A DNA stretch of 64,000 nucleotides from assembly GCA_020445605.1 (NCBI GenBank), contig JAGRGH010000049.1, positions 186,001 through 250,000 of the forward strand. The letters are read 5' to 3'. This document shows positions 2,171 through 64,000 of the stretch, one piece after another. This DNA is from Chromatiales bacterium. GTDB taxonomy: Bacteria; Pseudomonadota; Gammaproteobacteria; JAGRGH01. Position 1 is the stretch's first letter. Each line of letters begins with the position of its first letter. The notes beneath the pieces were generated by a model that worked only from the letters and a program-made list of their open reading frames with translations, made no database searches and had not been told where the DNA came from. Made by a program: the position numbers and the translations under genes.

Positions 2171-2320
2171 GGGAAGCTCTGATCCATCCATCCCGGGTTG
2201 CCCGAGCGTCGAAAACGAAAAAGTGCGATTTTTCGTTTTCTTTAATTTTTTACGTCTTACACCTGTTGAAAATGGCAGCACTTTCCTTGTCATGTGAAGA
2301 TCTGAGTCGTTCAGAGCTCA
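2171..2320 (+). repeat. Five-hairpin repeat, family B, copy 1
   Basis: Begins with GGGAAGCTCTGAT and contains the A/T-rich bidirectional hairpin GAAAACGAAAAA-GTGCGA-TTTTTCGTTTTC (2211-2240, 12-bp stem). The third and fourth hairpins have decayed on one arm. The element ends near TCAGAGCTC. Confidence 0.72.
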
Positions 2321-5240: not shown

Positions 5241-5390
5241 CTGATTGCATCAGGATCGCCCGCGGCACATGGACGTGCCGCCATTTTCAACGGATGTAAG
5301 CCGTTGAAAATGAGAGAAAAAGGAAAATCGCACTTTTTTCGTTTTCGCTGCTCTGGCAATCCTTCGACGGATTGATCAGGGCTTCCGTAG
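5241..5390 (-). repeat. Five-hairpin repeat, family B, copy 2 (reverse)
   Basis: Complete reverse copy at a convergent junction. In + strand order it has CCTGAT-TGC-ATCAGG, then GCGGCAC-ATGGAC-GTGCCGC, then CATTTTCAACGG-ATGTAAG-CCGTTGAAAATG (12-bp perfect stem, 5282-5312), then the A/T-rich hairpin region, then CAATCC-N5-GGATTG. Compared with copy 5 the stems carry paired changes (GTGGCAC/GTGCCAC there, GCGGCAC/GTGCCGC here). Confidence 0.8.
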
Positions 5391-5552
5391 CAGGTTGTTG
5401 AAAAAGGCCCATCCATGGCCTGTTCAACATCGCAACCGAAGAGCGCGGTTTTCGGTCGCTCACGAACATCAGCCACTTGCGTGTCCGGGTTTCGGGCGAG
5501 ACATCCCTGTCTCGCGATATCAGCCTGTTGAAACGAGATTTTCGACAGCCTG
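5391..5552 (+). repeat. Five-hairpin repeat, family A, copy 2
   Basis: 162 bp from CAGGTTGTTGAAA to TTTTCGACAGCCTG. Hairpins include AAAGGCC/GGCC, ACCGAA-GAGCGCGGT-TTTCGGT, and CGAGAC-ATCCCT-GTCTCG (5497-5514). It abuts B copy 2 directly, so the whole 5241-5552 junction between the imelysin and bfr genes is repeat. Confidence 0.8.
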
Positions 5553-17769: not shown

Positions 17770-20700
17770 ATGACCATCGCGAACCAACAAGACATCCTCA
17801 CGCGCGAAAATCTCGGCTTCGCCGGCAAGCTGGCGGACTCGTTCATTCATTCGCCGCTCTCGCCGATGCTGTTCATCGCGTTCATGCTGATCGGGTTCTA
17901 CGGTCTGTATGCCACGCCACGTCAGGAAGACCCGCAGATCGAAGTGCCGATGATCGACATCATGCTGCGCATGCCCGGGGCATCGTCGCAGGAGGTGTCG
18001 CGGCTCGTGGTCAGCCCGCTGGAGCGTCTGGTCAGCGAGATTCCCGGCGTCAAGCACGTCTACTCGGTCAGCGACGAGGAGATGGGCATCATCACGCTGG
18101 AGTTCCATGTCGGCGAGAAGATCGAATCCGCGATCGTTCTGACACACAACAAGGTGCAGTCCAACCTCGATCACATTCCGCCGGGCGTGGAGATGCCCCT
18201 CATCAAGTCCAAAGAGATCGATGACGTCCCGGCCGTAACGCTGACTCTGTGGTCACAGGAACAGGACGACGCCGTATTGCGCACGCTGGCCGTCAGTGTC
18301 ATGCAGCGCCTGACGGCCCTGCCGAAGACCGGCAACGCGTTCGTCTCCGGTGGTCGCGCCGAGCAGGTGCGTGTGGATGTGTTCCCGGAACGCCTGTCCG
18401 GGTACGGCATCTCCATGGGCCATATCGCCAAGACCATCGAGGGCTTCAACTCCGAACAGACCGTCGGTGGCATCGAACAGGGTGGCCGCTACTTCTGGGT
18501 GGAAACTGGCACCTTCTTGAATTCAGCCGCGGATTTCGGCCGCCTGGTCGTCGGCATGAACAACGGCCGGCCCGTGTACCTGCGCGATGTGGCCGAGATC
18601 ACATCCGGTCCGGAGGAGCCGCGCCAGTCCGTCAACCACTTCAGTGGTCCTGCCAGCGACGGGCCGGACGTTTACGCCGCACCTGCCGTGACCATCGCCA
18701 TCGCCAAGCAGCATGGCGCGAATGGAGTGGAAGTCGTTCGCAGCGTGCTGGCCGAGGTCGAGCGGCTGAAAGGTTCGCTGATTCCCGACGACGTGCACGT
18801 GGAAGTCACCCGCGACTACGGCAAGACCGCGAACGACAAGGTCAACGACCTGTTGTTCAAGCTCGTCGTCGCGACCGCGGCCGTCACTGTGCTGGTATGG
18901 CTGTCGCTGGGCTTCCGCCCGGCCATCGTCGTTCTGCTGAACATCCCGGTCGTTCTGGTCGTGACCGTTTTTATCGCGATGCTGATGGGCTACACGATCG
19001 ATCGCGTCAGCCTGTTCGCGCTGATCTTTTCGATCGGGTTCCTGGTCGACAATGCGATCGTCATCGTGGAGAACATCTACGCGCGCTGGCTGCGCGCGAA
19101 CAACACGAGCACCGAAATCGCCATCGATGCGGTGCGCGAGGTCGGCAACCCCACCGTATTGGCAACCTATACGGTCGTCGCTGCGCTCCTGCCCATGGGT
19201 TTCGTGCGCGGGATGATGGGGCCGTACATGGAGCCCATCCCGGCACTGGGTTCCGTCGCGATGGTGTTCTCGCTGATCGCCGCGGTGATCTTCGCGCCCT
19301 GGCTCGCCATGCGCATGATTCCGCCGATGAAATCGCTGCACAAGATGCACGAGCGCGATCAGAAGATCGACAACGCGCTGGAAGGGTTCTACCAGAAGGT
19401 CATCGGCCGGCTCGCCAACGACGCCAAGGCCGGCTGGATTTTCATGATCGGCCTGATTCTGGCGTTCGCACTCACGATCCTGATGTTCTTCACCTATGCG
19501 GTGACGGTGAAGATGCTGCCGTTCGACAACAAGGCGGAGTTCAGTCTGGTGGTGGACATGCCGGATGGCTCGGCGTTGTCCGAGACCGTCAGCGCCCTGT
19601 ACGAAATGGCCGATCAGTTGCGCGAGATGCCCGAAGTCGTCGGCATCCAGACCTACGCCGGCACGGCCAAGCCCTTCGATTTCAACGGCATGGTGCGACA
19701 TTACTACCTGCGCATGTTCCCGTGGCAGGGGGAAGCACAGATTCAGCTGCTCGACAAGGGTGATCGTGACCGTACCAGCCACGACATCGCGGTCGATGCG
19801 CGCAAGCGCCTTGCTCCGATCGCCGAACGCTATGGCGCGGTCCTCACCGTTGCCGAAATGCCGCCCGGTCCGCCGGTGCTGCAAACCGTCGTGGCCGAGG
19901 TGCACGGGCCGGATGCGGCGACACGTGCGCAGGTTGCGCGCGATCTCACGCAGATCTTCAAGGAATCGGATCTGATCGCCGATGTCGACAACTTCATGCG
20001 CGACGGGCTCGAGACCTGGCGTTTCGAGGTCGATCTCGACAAGGCGGCGAATACCGGCGTCACCGTCGAGACCATCAACCAACACCTCGCCATGGCCATG
20101 GGCGAGTTCAAGGTCGGCGACATCAAACAGCCGCTGGTATACGAGCCGACCTACATCCTGTTGCAGGTCCCGCTGGCGCAGCGCTCGAATCTGCAACGGC
20201 TCTCGGACCTGCCCGTCATCACGCCGGACGGGCGTTCCATCCCGCTGGCGCAGCTCGGCCATTTCGTGCGTTCCAAGCGTGATCCGCTGATCTTCCACAA
20301 GGACCTGCGACCCGTGGAGTTCGTCGTCGGCGATGCCGTCGGAAAACTGGCCGCGCCGGTCTACGCGATGTTCGACGTCGAGGATCGCCTGGCCGACTAC
20401 GTTGCGCCGGACGGCGTCAAGCTGGAGAGCTTCTATACCGATGCCCCGCCCACGGATTTCGTATCGGGCTTCGAGTGGTCCGGCGAATGGACCGTGACCT
20501 ACGAAACCTTCCGCGACATGGGGATTGCGTTCGCGGTGGCTCTGGTCGGCATCTACATGCTGGTTGTCTGGCAGTTCGGCAACTTTTCGATCCCGGCCGT
20601 GATCATGGCGCCGATCCCGCTGACCATGCTCGGCATCGTGCCGGGACACTGGCTGCTGAGTGCCGACTTCACTGCAACCTCGATGATCGGCTGGATCGCG

Positions 20701-21129
20701 CTGTCGGGCATCATTGTGCGTAACTCGATCCTGCTGATCGACTTCACAGTGCACCAGGTCGGTCGCGGCACCCCGCTCTACGAAGCCGTGCTGACGGCTG
20801 CGAAGGCCAGAACCCGGCCGATCATGATTACGGCGCTCGCCCTCGTGCTGGGTTCGGCGGTGATCCTCACCGATCCGACCTTCCAGGGCATGGCGATCTC
20901 GCTGCTGTTCGGAGTATTCGTTTCAACCCTGCTGACCCTGATCGTGATTCCGCTGGGCTGCATTTCGCTGGGCGAGCAGGTGTTCCGTCAGTGCGCCTGC
21001 ATGGAGAATCCGCAGGGCTGCGATCCGGAGCGGATCAAAGCGGCCGCGGCGGAAGCAAAGGCCGCGAAGAAGGCACGCCGCAGTCGTCGCAAGGCGAAGC
21101 CGGATTCCGACGCGCCGGCGGCCGAATAG
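17770..21129 (+). CDS. RND efflux permease
   Basis: 1119-aa inner-membrane proton-driven pump, twelve membrane segments in two repeats. It has two large periplasmic loops (PPGVEMPLIKSKEIDDVPAV near 140; MPPGPPVLQTVVAEVHGPD near 700) and ends in a Lys/Ala-rich cytoplasmic tail of about 50 residues, with Cys residues (CACMENPQGC) just before it. TM4 reads FLVDNAIVIVEN, so the usual Asp-Asp relay pair is Asp-Asn. The gene is 136 bp after its adaptor. It is clearly related to the permease at 60150-64000, which keeps Asp-Asp. Substrate unknown. Confidence 0.88.
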   Translation: MTIANQQDILTRENLGFAGKLADSFIHSPLSPMLFIAFMLIGFYGLYATPRQEDPQIEVPMIDIMLRMPGASSQEVSRLVVSPLERLVSEIPGVKHVYSVSDEEMGIITLEFHVGEKIESAIVLTHNKVQSNLDHIPPGVEMPLIKSKEIDDVPAVTLTLWSQEQDDAVLRTLAVSVMQRLTALPKTGNAFVSGGRAEQVRVDVFPERLSGYGISMGHIAKTIEGFNSEQTVGGIEQGGRYFWVETGTFLNSAADFGRLVVGMNNGRPVYLRDVAEITSGPEEPRQSVNHFSGPASDGPDVYAAPAVTIAIAKQHGANGVEVVRSVLAEVERLKGSLIPDDVHVEVTRDYGKTANDKVNDLLFKLVVATAAVTVLVWLSLGFRPAIVVLLNIPVVLVVTVFIAMLMGYTIDRVSLFALIFSIGFLVDNAIVIVENIYARWLRANNTSTEIAIDAVREVGNPTVLATYTVVAALLPMGFVRGMMGPYMEPIPALGSVAMVFSLIAAVIFAPWLAMRMIPPMKSLHKMHERDQKIDNALEGFYQKVIGRLANDAKAGWIFMIGLILAFALTILMFFTYAVTVKMLPFDNKAEFSLVVDMPDGSALSETVSALYEMADQLREMPEVVGIQTYAGTAKPFDFNGMVRHYYLRMFPWQGEAQIQLLDKGDRDRTSHDIAVDARKRLAPIAERYGAVLTVAEMPPGPPVLQTVVAEVHGPDAATRAQVARDLTQIFKESDLIADVDNFMRDGLETWRFEVDLDKAANTGVTVETINQHLAMAMGEFKVGDIKQPLVYEPTYILLQVPLAQRSNLQRLSDLPVITPDGRSIPLAQLGHFVRSKRDPLIFHKDLRPVEFVVGDAVGKLAAPVYAMFDVEDRLADYVAPDGVKLESFYTDAPPTDFVSGFEWSGEWTVTYETFRDMGIAFAVALVGIYMLVVWQFGNFSIPAVIMAPIPLTMLGIVPGHWLLSADFTATSMIGWIALSGIIVRNSILLIDFTVHQVGRGTPLYEAVLTAAKARTRPIMITALALVLGSAVILTDPTFQGMAISLLFGVFVSTLLTLIVIPLGCISLGEQVFRQCACMENPQGCDPERIKAAAAEAKAAKKARRSRRKAKPDSDAPAAE

Positions 21130-24149: not shown

Positions 24150-24156
24150 GCTCTTA

Positions 24157-24319
24157 GCCGGTTGTTGAAAAAGGCCCATCCATGGCCTTTTTGACATCGA
24201 AACCGAAAAGCGTGGTTGTCGGTTGCTCTAGAAAATCAAACACTTGCGTGTTCGACTTTCGGGCGAGACGTCCCTGTCTCGCGATACCAGGCTGTTGAAG
24301 TGAGAATTTCAACAGCCTG
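24157..24319 (+). repeat. Five-hairpin repeat, family A, copy 3 (best preserved)
   Basis: 163 bp. H1 AAAAAGGCC-N7-GGCCTTTTT (24168-24192), a bidirectional terminator shape. H2 AACCGA...TCGGTT (about 24200-24223). H3 AACAC-TTGC-GTGTT. H4 CGAGAC-GTCCCT-GTCTCG (24264-24281). H5 CAGGCTGTTGAA-N8-TTCAACAGCCTG (24288-24319, 12-bp perfect stem). The ends form an inverted repeat (CGGTTGTTGAAA / TTTCAACAGCCTG). It fills the convergent junction between the aspartoacylase-like and acylphosphatase genes. Confidence 0.88.
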
Positions 24320-24352
24320 TCAGGGAGCCTCCTAGCCAGCCGGGCCGGACCG

Positions 24353-31385: not shown

Positions 31386-33037
<1,652 letters not shown>

Positions 33038-33048
<11 letters not shown>

Positions 33049-33199
33049 AAAAGGCTCGTCCATGGGCTTTTCAACGTCACAACCGAAAAGCGTGGTTTTC
33101 GGTTGCTCACAAAAATCAAACACTTGCATGTTCGAACTTCGGGCGAGCCGTCCCTGTCTCGCGTTATCAGACTGCTGAAATGAGAATTTCAACAGCCTG
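33038..33199 (+). repeat. Five-hairpin repeat, family A, copy 4
   Basis: 162 bp from CAGGTCGTTGAAA to TTTCAACAGCCTG. H1 GTTGAAAA/TTTTCAAC, H2 AACCGAAAA-GCGTGG-TTTTCGGTT (33081-33104, 9-bp stem), H4 CGAGCC-GTCCCT-GTCTCG, H5 CTGAAATGAGAATTTCA-type. Its left end contains the hda stop codon, and a short B-type start (GGAAGCTCT) precedes it inside hda. Confidence 0.85.
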
Positions 33200-33203
33200 C
33201 CAA

Positions 33204-33243
33204 GGAAGCGCTGATCAATCCGTCCCGGATTGATCAGGGATTC
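33204..33243 (+). repeat. Family B repeat fragment
   Basis: Only the first hairpin of B: CTGATCAATCCG-TCC-CGGATTGATCAG (33211-33237, 12-bp perfect stem) after GGAAGCG. With the B-type bases at 33028-33036 it flanks the A element, as if A had been placed inside B. Confidence 0.65.
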
Positions 33244-33257
33244 ACCAGATGGTCCGG

Positions 33258-37428: not shown

Positions 37429-37579
37429 GGAAGCTCTGATTAATCCATTCTGGATTAACAGAGCGACGAAAACGAAAAAGCGCGGTTTTTCGTTTTCTTA
37501 CATTTTCAATGGCTTACGCACATTGAAAATGGTGGCACGTCCCTGTGCCACGGGAAACTCTGAATTGATCAGAGTTTCC
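37429..37579 (+). repeat. Five-hairpin repeat, family B, copy 5 (best preserved)
   Basis: 151 bp made entirely of five adjacent hairpins. H1 GCTCTG-A-TTAATCC / GGATTAA-CAGAGC with one bulge (37433-37464). H2 GAAAACGAAAAA-GCGCGG-TTTTTCGTTTTC (37468-37497). H3 CATTTTCAATG-N9-CATTGAAAATG (37501-37531). H4 GTGGCAC-GTCCCT-GTGCCAC (37532-37551). H5 GGAAACTCTGA-ATTGA-TCAGAGTTTCC (37553-37579). The ends are inverted (GGAAGCTCTGAT vs GGAAACTCTGA). Convergent junction DUF3108/norB. Confidence 0.9.
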
Positions 37580-59726: not shown

Positions 59727-60153
59727 GGTCTTCTGGCGGTCCTGGCAGCATGAGACCTTCGGCCGGCTCGTCGAAAGGGAGAAAACCCATCGCCGCCGGG
59801 GATTCTGGGGCCTGATTATAGAACCCGGGTTCGGTGTTGGTCAGTCGGCGCGCGTGCTCAGGCGGCGCGGGAAGCTCCGCGGGGCGCTCCCAACCATACG
59901 AACCTGAATCATCGTAGAGGTTCAAATCGGCCGGCGGGTACAGCGGCGCAAGCGATGCCCGACTTGGTGGTCGCGGCGGCAGCGGCAGCCCGTAGGGACC
60001 GGGGGGCGGCGGATAGGGATGCAGCATTTCGACGTCGGCCGGTTCATCCGCCCGATAGACGAATTCCGGGTTGCCTGCCGCACTGCCGCGCGCGTTCACG
60101 AGCACGGCAGCGCCCAGCGCAACGGCCAGGATCGTGGCGGGCCTGGAGATCAT
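59707..60153 (-). CDS. Proline-rich exported protein
   Basis: 148 aa starting MISRPATILAVALGAAVLVNARGSAAG, a signal peptide, then Pro/Tyr-rich sequence (HPYPPPPGPYGLPLPPRPP) with acidic residues. ATG overlaps the RND stop by 4 nt. No family recognised; composition is like the following gene, so the two may be related. Confidence 0.65.
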   Translation of the reverse strand: MISRPATILAVALGAAVLVNARGSAAGNPEFVYRADEPADVEMLHPYPPPPGPYGLPLPPRPPSRASLAPLYPPADLNLYDDSGSYGWERPAELPAPPEHARRLTNTEPGFYNQAPESPAAMGFLPFDEPAEGLMLPGPPEDRAQLLR

Positions 60154-63100
60154 CCGCTCGACGGGCCGCCGTCGTCGTCCAACTCCGTTTTCAAACGAAT
60201 GCCGCGACGACTTCCGCCCTTTCGCACCGGAACCGTCGGTCGCCGAGCGACCTGTGATTTCACCGCCGCTGGCCGTACGGGTGCCGGCGTCGTGGCGGCG
60301 GCCGTAACAGCCGGCGGCGTTGTGCCTTGTTTGGCACTCGCCTTCGTCGGGACGGCTTTTGCCGCTGCCCGGGGCTGCGGCCGCACGGCAGCCGGTTTCG
60401 CCGGCTCGGTGCCGGAGCGTCGCGCCACGGCCGTTGGACGCGGAGCCTCGCCGCGCGGTGCCGCTGTCTGGACCGGCGCCGGTCTTGGCGTGCCCTGAGT
60501 TTCGGGTGACGACGACGAAGCCGCCGCACCGCCCGCTGCGGGCGCGCTACCGATGGGCGCGGGCTTCGGCGCAGGCGGCTGGGCCGGGCGCGGCTGTGCG
60601 GAAACGGGCGGCGGCGCAATCGGGTGTGGCGCCCGCGGCACGGGCGGATGCGGTGGTACGCCGCCGGCCGGGGGCGTGCCGCCGGCACCGGGTACCGTGC
60701 GCGCCTTCGGTTTGCGCCAGCGCGCAATCAGGCTACGAATGGATTCCATGGCCAGCATGCCGAGGGCGCGAACGATGTAGTAGGTCCAGCTGATCACCGT
60801 GATCAGTTTCGACCACAGGCTGACCCATAGCGGCGTGCCGGCCGCGGCCGCCGGCCGCGGTTCAGTTGCCGGACGCGCCGGCGCCGCAGATGCGTCCGAA
60901 GTGACCGGCGCAACGGTGCCGACAACCTCGTACATCGCGTACTTGGCCTTCACACAGCCCAATGGAACAACGATCAGGGTCAGCATCGTCGATACGACGA
61001 CGCCGGCCATGAGCGAGATTGCCATGCCCTGGAAGATCGGATCGGTCAGGATCACGAAGGCACCGCCCACCAGTGCAAAGGCGGTGATGAGAATCGGGCG
61101 CGTACGCGTCTTGCAGGACTCGACCACGGAATCTTTCAGCGTCGCGCCTCGACGCATTGCATTGATGGAGAAATCCACCAACAGGATGGAGTTGCGCACG
61201 ATGATGCCGGCGAGCGCTATCCAGCCGATCATCGATGTCGCCGTGAACTCCGCGCCAAACACATAGTGGCCCGGAATGATGCCGAGCAGGGTCAACGGAA
61301 TCGGCGCCATGATCACGGCGGGAATGCGGAAGTTGCCGAATTCCATGACGACGAGGAAATAGATCAACATCAGCGCGACCATGAACGCCGCGCCCATGTC
61401 GCGGAAGGTCTCGTAGGTGACGGTCCACTCCCCGGTCCATTCGATGAACGATTGCGTGTCGTTCTTTGGCACGTTGAAGTCCAGCCAGTAGGCGGCGTCA
61501 CCGAGTGCGACGCCATCCGGCGTCCGGTAGCCGTCCTCGCGCATGAGGTCCTGGACCTGGAACATGCCATAGACCGGCGCGGCGAGATCGCCGGCGACGT
61601 CGCCCACGACATACTCGACCGCGCGCAGATCCTTGTGGAACAACGTCGCGTCCTGCTGCGCGCGCACGAAGCGTCCGAGTTCGGCGAGCGGTACCGTGGG
61701 TCCACCCGAGGTCGGAATCGGCAGCTGGTTCAGGCGCGAAATCTCCGAACGTGTCGCGAGCGGCACCTGGATCACGATATTGATCGGCTCGTTGACGCTG
61801 CCCTGCTTCACATCGCCAAGACTGAAGCCACCGAGCGCCATGGCCAGATTGCGGTTGATGGTCTCCACCGAAATTCCACGGCGAACGGCCTTCTCGGTGT
61901 CGACTTCAAAACGCCAGTAGTCGTAGGGCTCCGACATATAGTTGTCGGCATCGACAATGTTCGGGGCGCGCTCGAAATAGCCGGTGACCTCGGTGGCGAC
62001 CTTGCGCCGGACGTGGTCACTCGGCCCGTGGATATCGGCGACAACCGATTGCAGCACGGGCGGGCCGGGCGGCATCTCGACAACGGCGATTCGCGCGCCC
62101 AGTTGCTGCGCCATCGGTGTGAGCAGTTCGCGAGCGGCCTCGGCGATCTCGTGACTGGACCGGTCACGCTCGGCGCGATGCAGCAACTGCACCTGCACCT
62201 CGCCCTGCCAGGGCTGCTCGCGCAGGTAGTAGTGACGGACCATGCCGTTGAAGTCGAACGGCCGCGGGACGCCCACATAGGTCTGCACGGCCGTGACTTC
62301 CGGAAAATCCCGCAGGGTTGCCGCGAACTGATAGGCAAGGTTCGCCGTGACCGGTAGCGAAGTGCCTTCAGGAAAGTCGATCGTGACGCTGAACTCGGGC
62401 TTGTTATCCAGCGGCAGCATCTTCACCTTGACGGCCTTGACGTAGAACATCGTGCATGCAAGCGCGAACAATGCCCACAGGACCAGGTTGAACATCCGGC
62501 GTTTCTTTGGATGATCGATCAGCGGCACCAGCACCCGCTCGTAGATGCGGCCGAGCCGCTCCGCTTCGCGCGCCTCGCGCTCGTGCGCGACGGTCAGATA
62601 ACTCATGCGCGGGCGCAGCGCGCCGTGATGCGCCAGATACGGCACGAACATGAACGCCGCGAACAGCGACAGGATCATCGCGACGATGCCGAGTGCCGGA
62701 ATCGGCTCCATGTACGGCCCCATCATGCCGCTGACGAATCCCATCGGCAGCAGGGCTGCGACCACGGTGAAGGTCGCGAGAATCGTCGGGTTGCCGACCT
62801 CGCGCACCGCGTCCACGGCGACATCGATGTCGGTATTCGTGTCGTGCAGCCAGCGGCGGTAGATGTTCTCGACCACGACGATCGCATCGTCAACCAGGAT
62901 GCCGATGGCGAAAATCAGCGCGAACAGCGATACACGATCGATGGTGTAGTTCATCACGAAGGCCGCGAACACGGTCATCAGGATGACGACCGGGATCACC
63001 ATGAACACGACCAGGGCGGGACGCACGGCGCGGAACGCCCCCACCACCAGCAACACGACGGCGCCGGTTGCGATGAACAGTTTCAGGATCAGACCGTTGA

Positions 63101-64000
63101 CCTTGTCACGCGCCGTTTCGCCGTAGTTGCGGGTGACTGAAACACCCACGTCACTGGTCAGCAAGCCGCCTTCCAGCACCTCCACCTTGGCGATGATGTC
63201 CTCGGCGACCTGCACGCCATTGGTGCCCTTCTTCTTGGCAACGGCGATCGTGACGGCCGGCGCCCCGTCGGCGAGATCGATACCGGCGTCAGCCCTGCCG
63301 GTGAAATAGTTGACGATCTGGCTGGCGTCCTCCGGGCGCTGGCGAACGTTCGCCACGTCGCGGACGTAGACCGGAGAACCGTTGTGGCTGCCGACGATGA
63401 GTCGGGAGACTTCATCGGCGCCGCGCAGAAACGAACCTGTGGTGACGGTCAGTCGCGAACCGCCGGCCTCCACTCCGCCGGCACTTTGTTCGACGTTCGC
63501 TGAACGGATGGTCTGCGCCACCTGATCCAGGCTGATGCCGAACCCGGCCAGCCGATCCGGCGCGACCTCGACGACCACCTGCTCGCGCCGGCCGCCGACG
63601 ACAAAGCCGTTGCCCGTCTCTGGAATCTCCTTTATCTTCTGCAGCACCTCGAATGCAAGGATGCGCAGCTGGCCATCGTCGACCTCCGGCTGTCCGTCGC
63701 CATTGACGTCACGGCCCCACAGCGTGATGTTGACGATCGGCACATCGTCGATACCCTTGGCCTTGACCAGCGGTGGGTCCACGCCGGGTGGAACGATGTC
63801 CATGTTGGAATCGAGCTTGTCATTGATCTTGACGAGCGAGTCTTCCATCTGCTCGCCGACTTCAAACTGCACCGTCACCACGCCCTGTCCGCGTTGGCTT
63901 GCGGAGTAGACGTGTTCAACGCCGGGAATCTCGAACAGGATTCGCTCCAGCGGTTCCACCGCCAGGCTTTCAACCTGCTGCGCCGGGGCGCCGGGGTACG
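60150..64000 (-). CDS. RND efflux permease with long Pro/Ala-rich C-terminal tail (5' end outside the window)
   Basis: At least 1282 aa are visible and the frame stays open at the window edge, so the N-terminal first helix is missing. RND motifs include PLERILFEIPGVEHVYSAS and PPGPPVLQSVVADIHGP; TM4 ILVDDAIVVVEN keeps both relay Asp. After the last helix comes a tail of about 230 residues, nearly all Pro, Ala, Arg and Lys, ending DDDGGPSSG. Such a tail is not a normal part of RND pumps. It is related to the permease at 17770 and is followed by two Pro-rich exported proteins in one operon. Confidence 0.85.
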   Translation of the reverse strand, partial: YPGAPAQQVESLAVEPLERILFEIPGVEHVYSASQRGQGVVTVQFEVGEQMEDSLVKINDKLDSNMDIVPPGVDPPLVKAKGIDDVPIVNITLWGRDVNGDGQPEVDDGQLRILAFEVLQKIKEIPETGNGFVVGGRREQVVVEVAPDRLAGFGISLDQVAQTIRSANVEQSAGGVEAGGSRLTVTTGSFLRGADEVSRLIVGSHNGSPVYVRDVANVRQRPEDASQIVNYFTGRADAGIDLADGAPAVTIAVAKKKGTNGVQVAEDIIAKVEVLEGGLLTSDVGVSVTRNYGETARDKVNGLILKLFIATGAVVLLVVGAFRAVRPALVVFMVIPVVILMTVFAAFVMNYTIDRVSLFALIFAIGILVDDAIVVVENIYRRWLHDTNTDIDVAVDAVREVGNPTILATFTVVAALLPMGFVSGMMGPYMEPIPALGIVAMILSLFAAFMFVPYLAHHGALRPRMSYLTVAHEREAREAERLGRIYERVLVPLIDHPKKRRMFNLVLWALFALACTMFYVKAVKVKMLPLDNKPEFSVTIDFPEGTSLPVTANLAYQFAATLRDFPEVTAVQTYVGVPRPFDFNGMVRHYYLREQPWQGEVQVQLLHRAERDRSSHEIAEAARELLTPMAQQLGARIAVVEMPPGPPVLQSVVADIHGPSDHVRRKVATEVTGYFERAPNIVDADNYMSEPYDYWRFEVDTEKAVRRGISVETINRNLAMALGGFSLGDVKQGSVNEPINIVIQVPLATRSEISRLNQLPIPTSGGPTVPLAELGRFVRAQQDATLFHKDLRAVEYVVGDVAGDLAAPVYGMFQVQDLMREDGYRTPDGVALGDAAYWLDFNVPKNDTQSFIEWTGEWTVTYETFRDMGAAFMVALMLIYFLVVMEFGNFRIPAVIMAPIPLTLLGIIPGHYVFGAEFTATSMIGWIALAGIIVRNSILLVDFSINAMRRGATLKDSVVESCKTRTRPILITAFALVGGAFVILTDPIFQGMAISLMAGVVVSTMLTLIVVPLGCVKAKYAMYEVVGTVAPVTSDASAAPARPATEPRPAAAAGTPLWVSLWSKLITVISWTYYIVRALGMLAMESIRSLIARWRKPKARTVPGAGGTPPAGGVPPHPPVPRAPHPIAPPPVSAQPRPAQPPAPKPAPIGSAPAAGGAAASSSSPETQGTPRPAPVQTAAPRGEAPRPTAVARRSGTEPAKPAAVRPQPRAAAKAVPTKASAKQGTTPPAVTAAATTPAPVRPAAVKSQVARRPTVPVRKGGSRRGIRLKTELDDDGGPSSG

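Follow-up and report, generated by a model that had tools for sequence, protein, structure and literature searches.

The window, i.e. the whole 64,000-nucleotide stretch of DNA that was analyzed, contains copies of two families of short hairpin-bearing repeats, A and B. Its features are listed in Table 1. The sequence-only reading had described family A as elements of 162–163 bp with inverted ends and five hairpins, located at four places. The copy placed at 24157–24319 is real, with exact borders at 24158 and 24319 (162 bp) and the flanks TTAG/TCAG, and all five hairpins were found in it. Two of the other places also hold full copies, whereas the fourth is a badly decayed copy on the minus strand from which one recognizable end is missing. 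For the alignment of family A, the four window places were combined with 30 copies from the genome to which the window belongs. The terminal inverted repeats were present, and the length was 161–163 bp in 29 of the 30 genome copies; 29 B copies measured 150–152 bp.

Table 1. Features of the repeat families A and B in the window
Feature	Position	Strand	Basis
Left target-site duplication TTAG (YTAR)	24154–24157		Left/right agreement test on A copies
Left terminal inverted repeat CCGGTTGTTGAAA (family consensus CAGGTTGTTGAAA)	24158–24170	+	Alignment of A copies
Hairpin H1; minus-strand loop AUGGAU (24178–24183), ANGGAN hexaloop, C-G closing	24165–24194	−	ANGGAN in 32/32 A copies
Hairpin H2; plus-strand loop GCGTGG (GYG triloop, bulged purine)	24201–24224	−	Covariation, loop counts
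Hairpin H3; plus-strand loop near CACTTGCG	24231–24260	−	Covariation, wobble counts
Hairpin H4; 7-bp stem, minus-strand loop AGGGAC (24270–24275) = C-ANGGAN-G	24263–24282	−	31/32 A copies
Hairpin H5; includes right terminal inverted repeat	24288–24319		Alignment of A copies
Right terminal inverted repeat TTTCAACAGCCTG	24307–24319	−	Alignment of A copies
Right target-site duplication TCAG, one change from TTAG	24320–24323		
Second A copy	5391–5552	+	
Third A copy, flanks CTAA/CCAA	33038–33199	+	Apparently inside B-type end
Decayed A copy, one end lost	1957–2104	−	
Family B element, flanks ATAG/ATAG, same five-hairpin plan, ends GGAAGCTCTGAT/ATCAGAGTTTCC	37429–37579	+	
Decayed B core	2210–2297	+	B-core model, 64.5 bits
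B core, reverse orientation	5260–5347	−	B-core model, 92.9 bits

Several further observations were made at these loci. At 33025–33245 of the window, the third A copy lies within an apparent B-type end (GGAAGCTCT/GGAAGCGCTGATCAATCCGTCCCGGATTGATCAGGG), which looks like a nested insertion. Elsewhere in the same genome, the right flank of locus L045, which adjoins a B copy, contains a palindrome of about 36 bp that consists solely of the two A-type ends (CTAACAGGTTGTTGAAAAGTGAATTTCAACAGCCTG). Large inverted repeats of about 70–77% identity at 18890–20745 and 61170–63049 of the window are probably two related genes, and the open reading frame at 60150–63959 encodes an AcrB-type RND pump according to Pfam.

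The window's own genome (G000; 3,364,788 bases on 63 contigs) contains at least 40 copies of family A including the query, counted from the best 40 of 94 candidates. Nearly all of them are full length, and those other than the query share 87–92% identity with the window copy (query, 100%), so that the family cannot be ascribed to chance. Family B occupies at least about 40 places in this genome, and searching with a model restricted to the B core yielded 79 core matches (E ≤ 1e-4). Based on the A matches, the B matches and the B-core matches, the genome probably carries more than 100 elements of the two families together. In three loci of another genome (L031, L032 and L036 of G021), short N runs and deletions lie exactly within hairpins. 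This suggests collapse during short-read assembly, and copy numbers are therefore probably underestimated. In a further genome (G018), head-to-tail H1-H2-H3-H4 arrays without H5 were observed at a spacing of about 121–124 bp (L081, G018:C1:2569150-2569483; L116, G018:C1:1594561-1594767); they look as if recombination had joined the similar arms of H1 and H5.

The tetranucleotides flanking the elements follow the pattern YTAR (CTAG, CTAA, TTAA, TTAG). Identical left and right 4-mers were found in 14 of 30 A copies (4.8 expected from shuffled flanks) and in 14 of 29 B copies (2.9 expected), and none of 20,000 shuffles reached the observed identity in either family. Positions 1 and 4 of the duplication agreed between left and right in 27 of 30 A copies, compared with 14 and 17.7 for shuffled flanks. 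The elements satisfy the criteria for a MITE, namely terminal inverted repeats, a target-site duplication of fixed length, no coding capacity and many dispersed copies. On the evidence of the inverted ends and the 4-bp YTAR duplication, A is classed here as a MITE mobilized by a DDE transposase and not as a REP/Y1 element.

A search of the window's genome with the transposase profile PF01609, the only profile used, gave no match, and its copies may therefore now be stranded. Complete insertion sequences of about 1.1–1.2 kb with GGAANNNCTGANNAA ends and YTAR duplications were found in other element-rich genomes, and two transposases encoded by them belong to the IS5 family (NF033581, E = 2e-97 and 1e-105). 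In five genomes (G261, G124, G090, G021 and G080), the B-type ends and YTAR match IS5-family elements of the same genome. A-type elements have the same YTAR duplication as the B/IS5-type, and no autonomous element with A-type (CAGGNTGTTGAAA) or third-type ends was present among the loci examined. At two loci (L149:1323-2637 and L163:820-2185), IS5-family elements directly abut an element end with YTAR in common between TTCC and GGAA; at these junctions, one of the two elements seems to use the ends of the other as its target.

The common descent of A and B that the sequence-only reading had proposed is supported. A covariance model trained only on hairpins 2–4 of B detected A with 30–47 bits (E down to 4e-8), and intermediates that combine A-type ends with a B-like core exist in two genomes (L039 and L040 of G021; L080 and L128 of G066). 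The hairpin order, the H2 stem-loop and the H4 loop GTCCCT are common to both families, as had been described, and the short H4 stem beneath its 6-nt loop comprises 7 bp in A and in B. The suggestion of a common partner also gained support, because the loops are nearly invariant although the stems have been replaced. At least three end types occur on the core (GGAA.., CAGG.. and GAGGGTGTCGC..), and an end type other than those of A and B, GAGGGTGTCGCAAAAG, was found in G009, G162 and G272. Cores with yet other ends (GGGCACTTCG.. and GGGGACTCCG..) were seen in L293 (G163) and in L291 and L297 (G008), and suggest additional transposase-specific end types. The core is thus conserved while the ends differ, and since they differ, the transposase used presumably differs too.

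Folding of the window copy gave z scores of −7.2 for the minus strand and −5.7 for the plus strand relative to dinucleotide shuffles. In 83 distinct elements, 96.8% of the pair cells held standard pairs, and two-sided (compensatory) change was present in 28 of 30 stem pairs. The covariation score was 0.576, compared with 0.162 (SD 0.007) after shuffling and at most 0.12 when the partner was slid. The alignment used for this analysis had been fitted to the structure; nevertheless, the stems are strong in each single sequence. Non-Watson-Crick cells are expected to favor G·U on the strand that folds. Counted as genome-by-pair events without correction for phylogeny, A·C on the plus strand (G·U on the minus strand) occurred 46 times versus 16 times for G·T on the plus strand, and 19 genomes favored the minus strand versus 2 that favored the plus strand. 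The H3 hairpin of the window copy contains such an A·C mismatch on the plus strand, which is a G·U wobble on the minus strand. Fifteen other genomes pointed more weakly in the same direction (27 versus 18 events, 8 versus 2 genomes), which alone was not significant. The search model rewards plus-strand G·U, and its bias therefore opposes the minus-strand result, making it conservative. Because of the wobble asymmetry, the minus strand is favored as the putative constrained strand.

The sequence-only reading would have been undermined if the shared loops were not conserved within A or B. This was not the case for the H4 loop, which was kept as NTCCNT in 31 of 32 A copies and 27 of 30 B copies. 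Across families, positions 2, 3, 4 and 6 of the plus-strand loop were T (79/79), C (77/79), C (78/79) and T (79/79), and positions 1 and 5 were free. On the minus strand the loop reads C-ANGGAN-G (A 79/79, G 78/79, G 77/79, A 79/79), with a C-G closing pair in 80 of 81 cases. The minus-strand loop of H1 contained GGA in 69 of 79 elements and 28 of 30 genomes, most commonly in the form A(N)GGAN (56/79). Within family A, ANGGAN was present in H1′ of 32/32 and H4′ of 31/32 copies, and changes affected 17 of 128 N positions versus 1 of 256 A/GGA positions (Fisher P = 5e-8). Family B retained ANGGAN in H4′ of 27/30 copies and GGA in H1′ of 27/30, where the first A is often G. The same loops were found on quite different stems in elements from other classes.

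In high-affinity RsmE/CsrA sites, a hexaloop of the form ANGGAX sits immediately on a stem, and a weaker variant does without the N (PMC4005645); the SELEX consensus is RUACARGGAUGU (PMC7652899). The element satisfies the structural definition of a CsrA/RsmA-binding RNA, which calls for at least two sites where an A(N)GGAX loop is placed immediately on a stem. Compared by sequence, H4′ and H1′ match the published CsrA/RsmA hairpin site; binding is inferred from this match, and there are no binding data. The loops of H3 (CTTR) and H2 are likewise conserved, for which CsrA offers no explanation. A shared GCGYGG loop had been assigned to H2. It is indeed shared, but since positions 2 and 6 of this loop covary (T-A/C-G), a better description is a GYG triloop with a T-A or C-G closing pair and a bulged purine. 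This triloop over a bulged purine occurs in all families and has a shape like that of a protein recognition site, which CsrA does not account for. The H2 triloop and the loop of H3 were also considered as partners in a kissing interaction, an idea that was dropped because, compared by eye, they do not covary.

No Rfam family matched the window at gathering scores. The RsmW model (RF02809) aligned over its whole length (positions 1–124 of 124) to minus-strand sequence at three element-bearing loci (L310, 45.6 bits, E = 8.5e-5; L109, E = 7.9e-4; L127, E = 8.6e-4), which represent three element families. The first GGA hairpin of RsmW falls on H4′ and the last on H1′. These scores are below the gathering cut-off (best 45.6 bits versus 52), and only 3 of about 50 element-bearing loci scanned matched, with no match in the window A copy or the other loci. 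RsmW binds RsmA with a Kd of 11.5 nM, antagonizes CsrA in E. coli and derives from the 3′UTR of PA4570 (PMC4950607). Our claim is that the element works like RsmW, with binding inferred, and not that every element belongs to RF02809. On the minus strand of an element in G162 (L138:235-325), the Rfam gyrA RNA motif RF01740 was matched in its entirety (30.7 bits, E = 1.6e-4; gathering cut-off 45), covering H2′ and H1′ together with the GUGAG spacer. It is possible that the gyrA leader of Pseudomonas is related as well.

The genomic context was assessed with home-made gene calls. For 43 elements both neighbors were called, and the flanking genes were convergent in 14, tandem in 28 and divergent in 1. 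No orientation bias of the elements relative to flanking genes was found (16 versus 12 for tandem pairs). Several copies begin only a few bases from a stop codon, in keeping with the presence of TAA/TAG in the YTAR target. Presence of csrA was not associated with the elements (39 of 45 carrier genomes versus 196 of 229 non-carriers) and is therefore not diagnostic. In the phylum sample csrA was found in 31 of 33 carriers, the two exceptions being 69–74% complete. It was not detected in G122 (95% complete) or its relative G237, where the element loops are mostly intact.

Of 274 genomes sampled from the class, 45 contained the core at E ≤ 1e-3, and many of these had 16 copies or more. Sampling across the phylum gave matches at E ≤ 1e-6 in 34 of 398 genomes, and 32 of these 34 lie outside the class. 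Carriers include the Olavius algarvensis Gamma 3 endosymbiont, a Thiotrichales MAG and many groundwater Gammaproteobacteria MAGs; Thioalkalivibrio sp. ALJT was matched by the H4 sequence pattern alone. No element was found in the viral contigs, plasmids and phages searched.

We favor, with a probability of about 0.6, the interpretation that A and B belong to an IS5-type MITE superfamily that carries as its cargo a minus-strand RNA which is RsmW-like and binds CsrA. The mobility signatures, covariation, strand asymmetry, loop constraint and RsmW-like architecture can be read directly from the DNA. A and B would be two families of one short non-autonomous DNA transposon superfamily, whose ends would be acted on in trans by a YTAR-duplicating DDE transposase, an IS5-family enzyme in the case of B-type ends. 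The interior is predicted to encode a structured minus-strand RNA with the order H5′-H4′-H3′-H2′-H1′, in which the A(N)GGAN loops of H4′ and H1′ would sit immediately on their stems, about 90 nt apart. Insertion would take place at or just past stop codons, and the RNA would most likely arise by read-through from a neighboring gene, as has been reported for RsmW; read-through from the upstream gene would yield the minus-strand RNA in about half of the insertions. As part of a 3′UTR or after processing, the RNA may bind a CsrA-type dimer and serve as a 3′UTR tether or a distributed sponge. Expression, CsrA binding, a regulatory effect and a benefit to element or host are inferred. A more far-reaching proposal is that a CsrA/RsmA RNA ligand is itself transposable, an RsmW-like RNA spread through the Proteobacteria on several unrelated transposase-specific ends at dozens to more than 100 copies per genome, with RsmW (and perhaps the gyrA leader) as domesticated single copies. 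This proposal is tentative, and we would give it slightly less than an even chance.

The same elements could be ordinary IS5-type MITEs in which the hairpins aid the DNA, as cruciforms or in single-strand recognition by a transposase or replication factor, with the loops as contacts and RNA irrelevant. The terminal inverted repeats, target-site duplication and IS5 partners agree with this, as do the occurrence in both orientations without strand bias relative to genes and the conservation of the H2 and H3 loops. However, the loops are constant across at least three end types, and the partner therefore does not follow the transposase. Moreover, the pattern of free and fixed loop positions is exactly ANGGAN, and internal hairpins are not known to be required in IS5-type transposition. 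We regard a role confined to DNA as unlikely, while still keeping it in consideration. It is also conceivable that a minus-strand RNA has a partner other than CsrA, for example another RNA-binding protein or a base-pairing target that reads the H1/H4 loops: the minus-strand and loop constraints name no protein, and the csrA-negative genomes G122 and G237 retain the loops. Base pairing, however, would not leave a free position between A and GGA, and both the C-ANGGAN-G geometry and the RsmW match are specific, which leaves only a slim prospect for a different partner.

Template-switch (quasipalindrome) correction is a known mutational process and could keep the stems perfect without any selection for structure. 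The stems are very well paired, as this process would predict, but it does not protect the loops, in which positions 2, 3, 4 and 6 are nonetheless near-invariant and 1 and 5 variable, and it yields no wobble strand asymmetry. A mutational origin of the covariation is already largely refuted by the loop data, and we consider it very improbable. The mobilization of a REP/BIME-type element by a Y1 (RAYT) transposase, a route that the sequence-only reading had suggested checking, would be in line with the hairpins, high copy number and extragenic location. It is contradicted by the terminal inverted repeats, the 4-bp YTAR duplication and the IS5-family partners, and the elements contain no GTAG or CGTC tag, by which REP/RAYT elements are defined at the hairpin base (PMC3733652). 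Hardly any likelihood remains for it.

If the interpretation as transposable carriers of a CsrA-binding RNA holds true, MITEs would have the potential to rewire the CsrA/Rsm regulon or to titrate it. This would link two fields, show where orphan Rsm RNAs such as RsmW came from in evolution, and explain why the repeats retain hairpins with fixed loops. The element may be a mobile CsrA-binding RNA in many Proteobacteria, with binding inferred. No report of a CsrA-binding MITE was found in the literature searched, which left most subscription journals outside its scope. Even with a partner other than CsrA, this is a MITE superfamily with RNA-like covariation in several classes, which goes unrecognized at Rfam's cut-offs and did not turn up in the literature searched.

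Among known systems, RsmW (RF02809) of Pseudomonas aeruginosa shares with the element four hairpins ordered like minus-strand H4′-H3′-H2′-H1′, with GGA loops in the first and last, a length of about 120 nt and a 3′UTR origin. In contrast to the element, it was reported as a single sRNA beside PA4570, and no description of inverted ends, a target duplication or dispersed copies was found for it. TwoAYGGAY RNA (RF01731) also contains two GGA-loop hairpins, proposed as CsrA sites (PMC4333381), but is not described as mobile, and it gave no Rfam match to the elements at any threshold used. In the sponge RNAs RsmX/Y/Z and CsrB/C, A(N)GGAX hairpin loops bind CsrA/RsmA dimers as well; these RNAs are, however, products of single chromosomal genes, have more sites and are not transposons. 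RsmV gave only chance-level matches in the loci scanned. REP elements and REPINs are likewise extragenic high-copy hairpin repeats, but have a GTAG or CGTC tag, a Y1 transposase and no target-site duplication. The QMITEs of Coxiella are MITEs reported to give rise to sRNAs, and differ by duplications of 7–9 bp and terminal inverted repeats of 23–29 bp, with no CsrA loops described in the review (PMC10969869). Like IS5-family MITEs, the elements have inverted ends resembling those of IS5-family elements in the same genome, a YTAR duplication, no gene and a length of 150–163 bp; unlike them, they possess a structured core that is kept by compensatory change in many genomes and on several end types.
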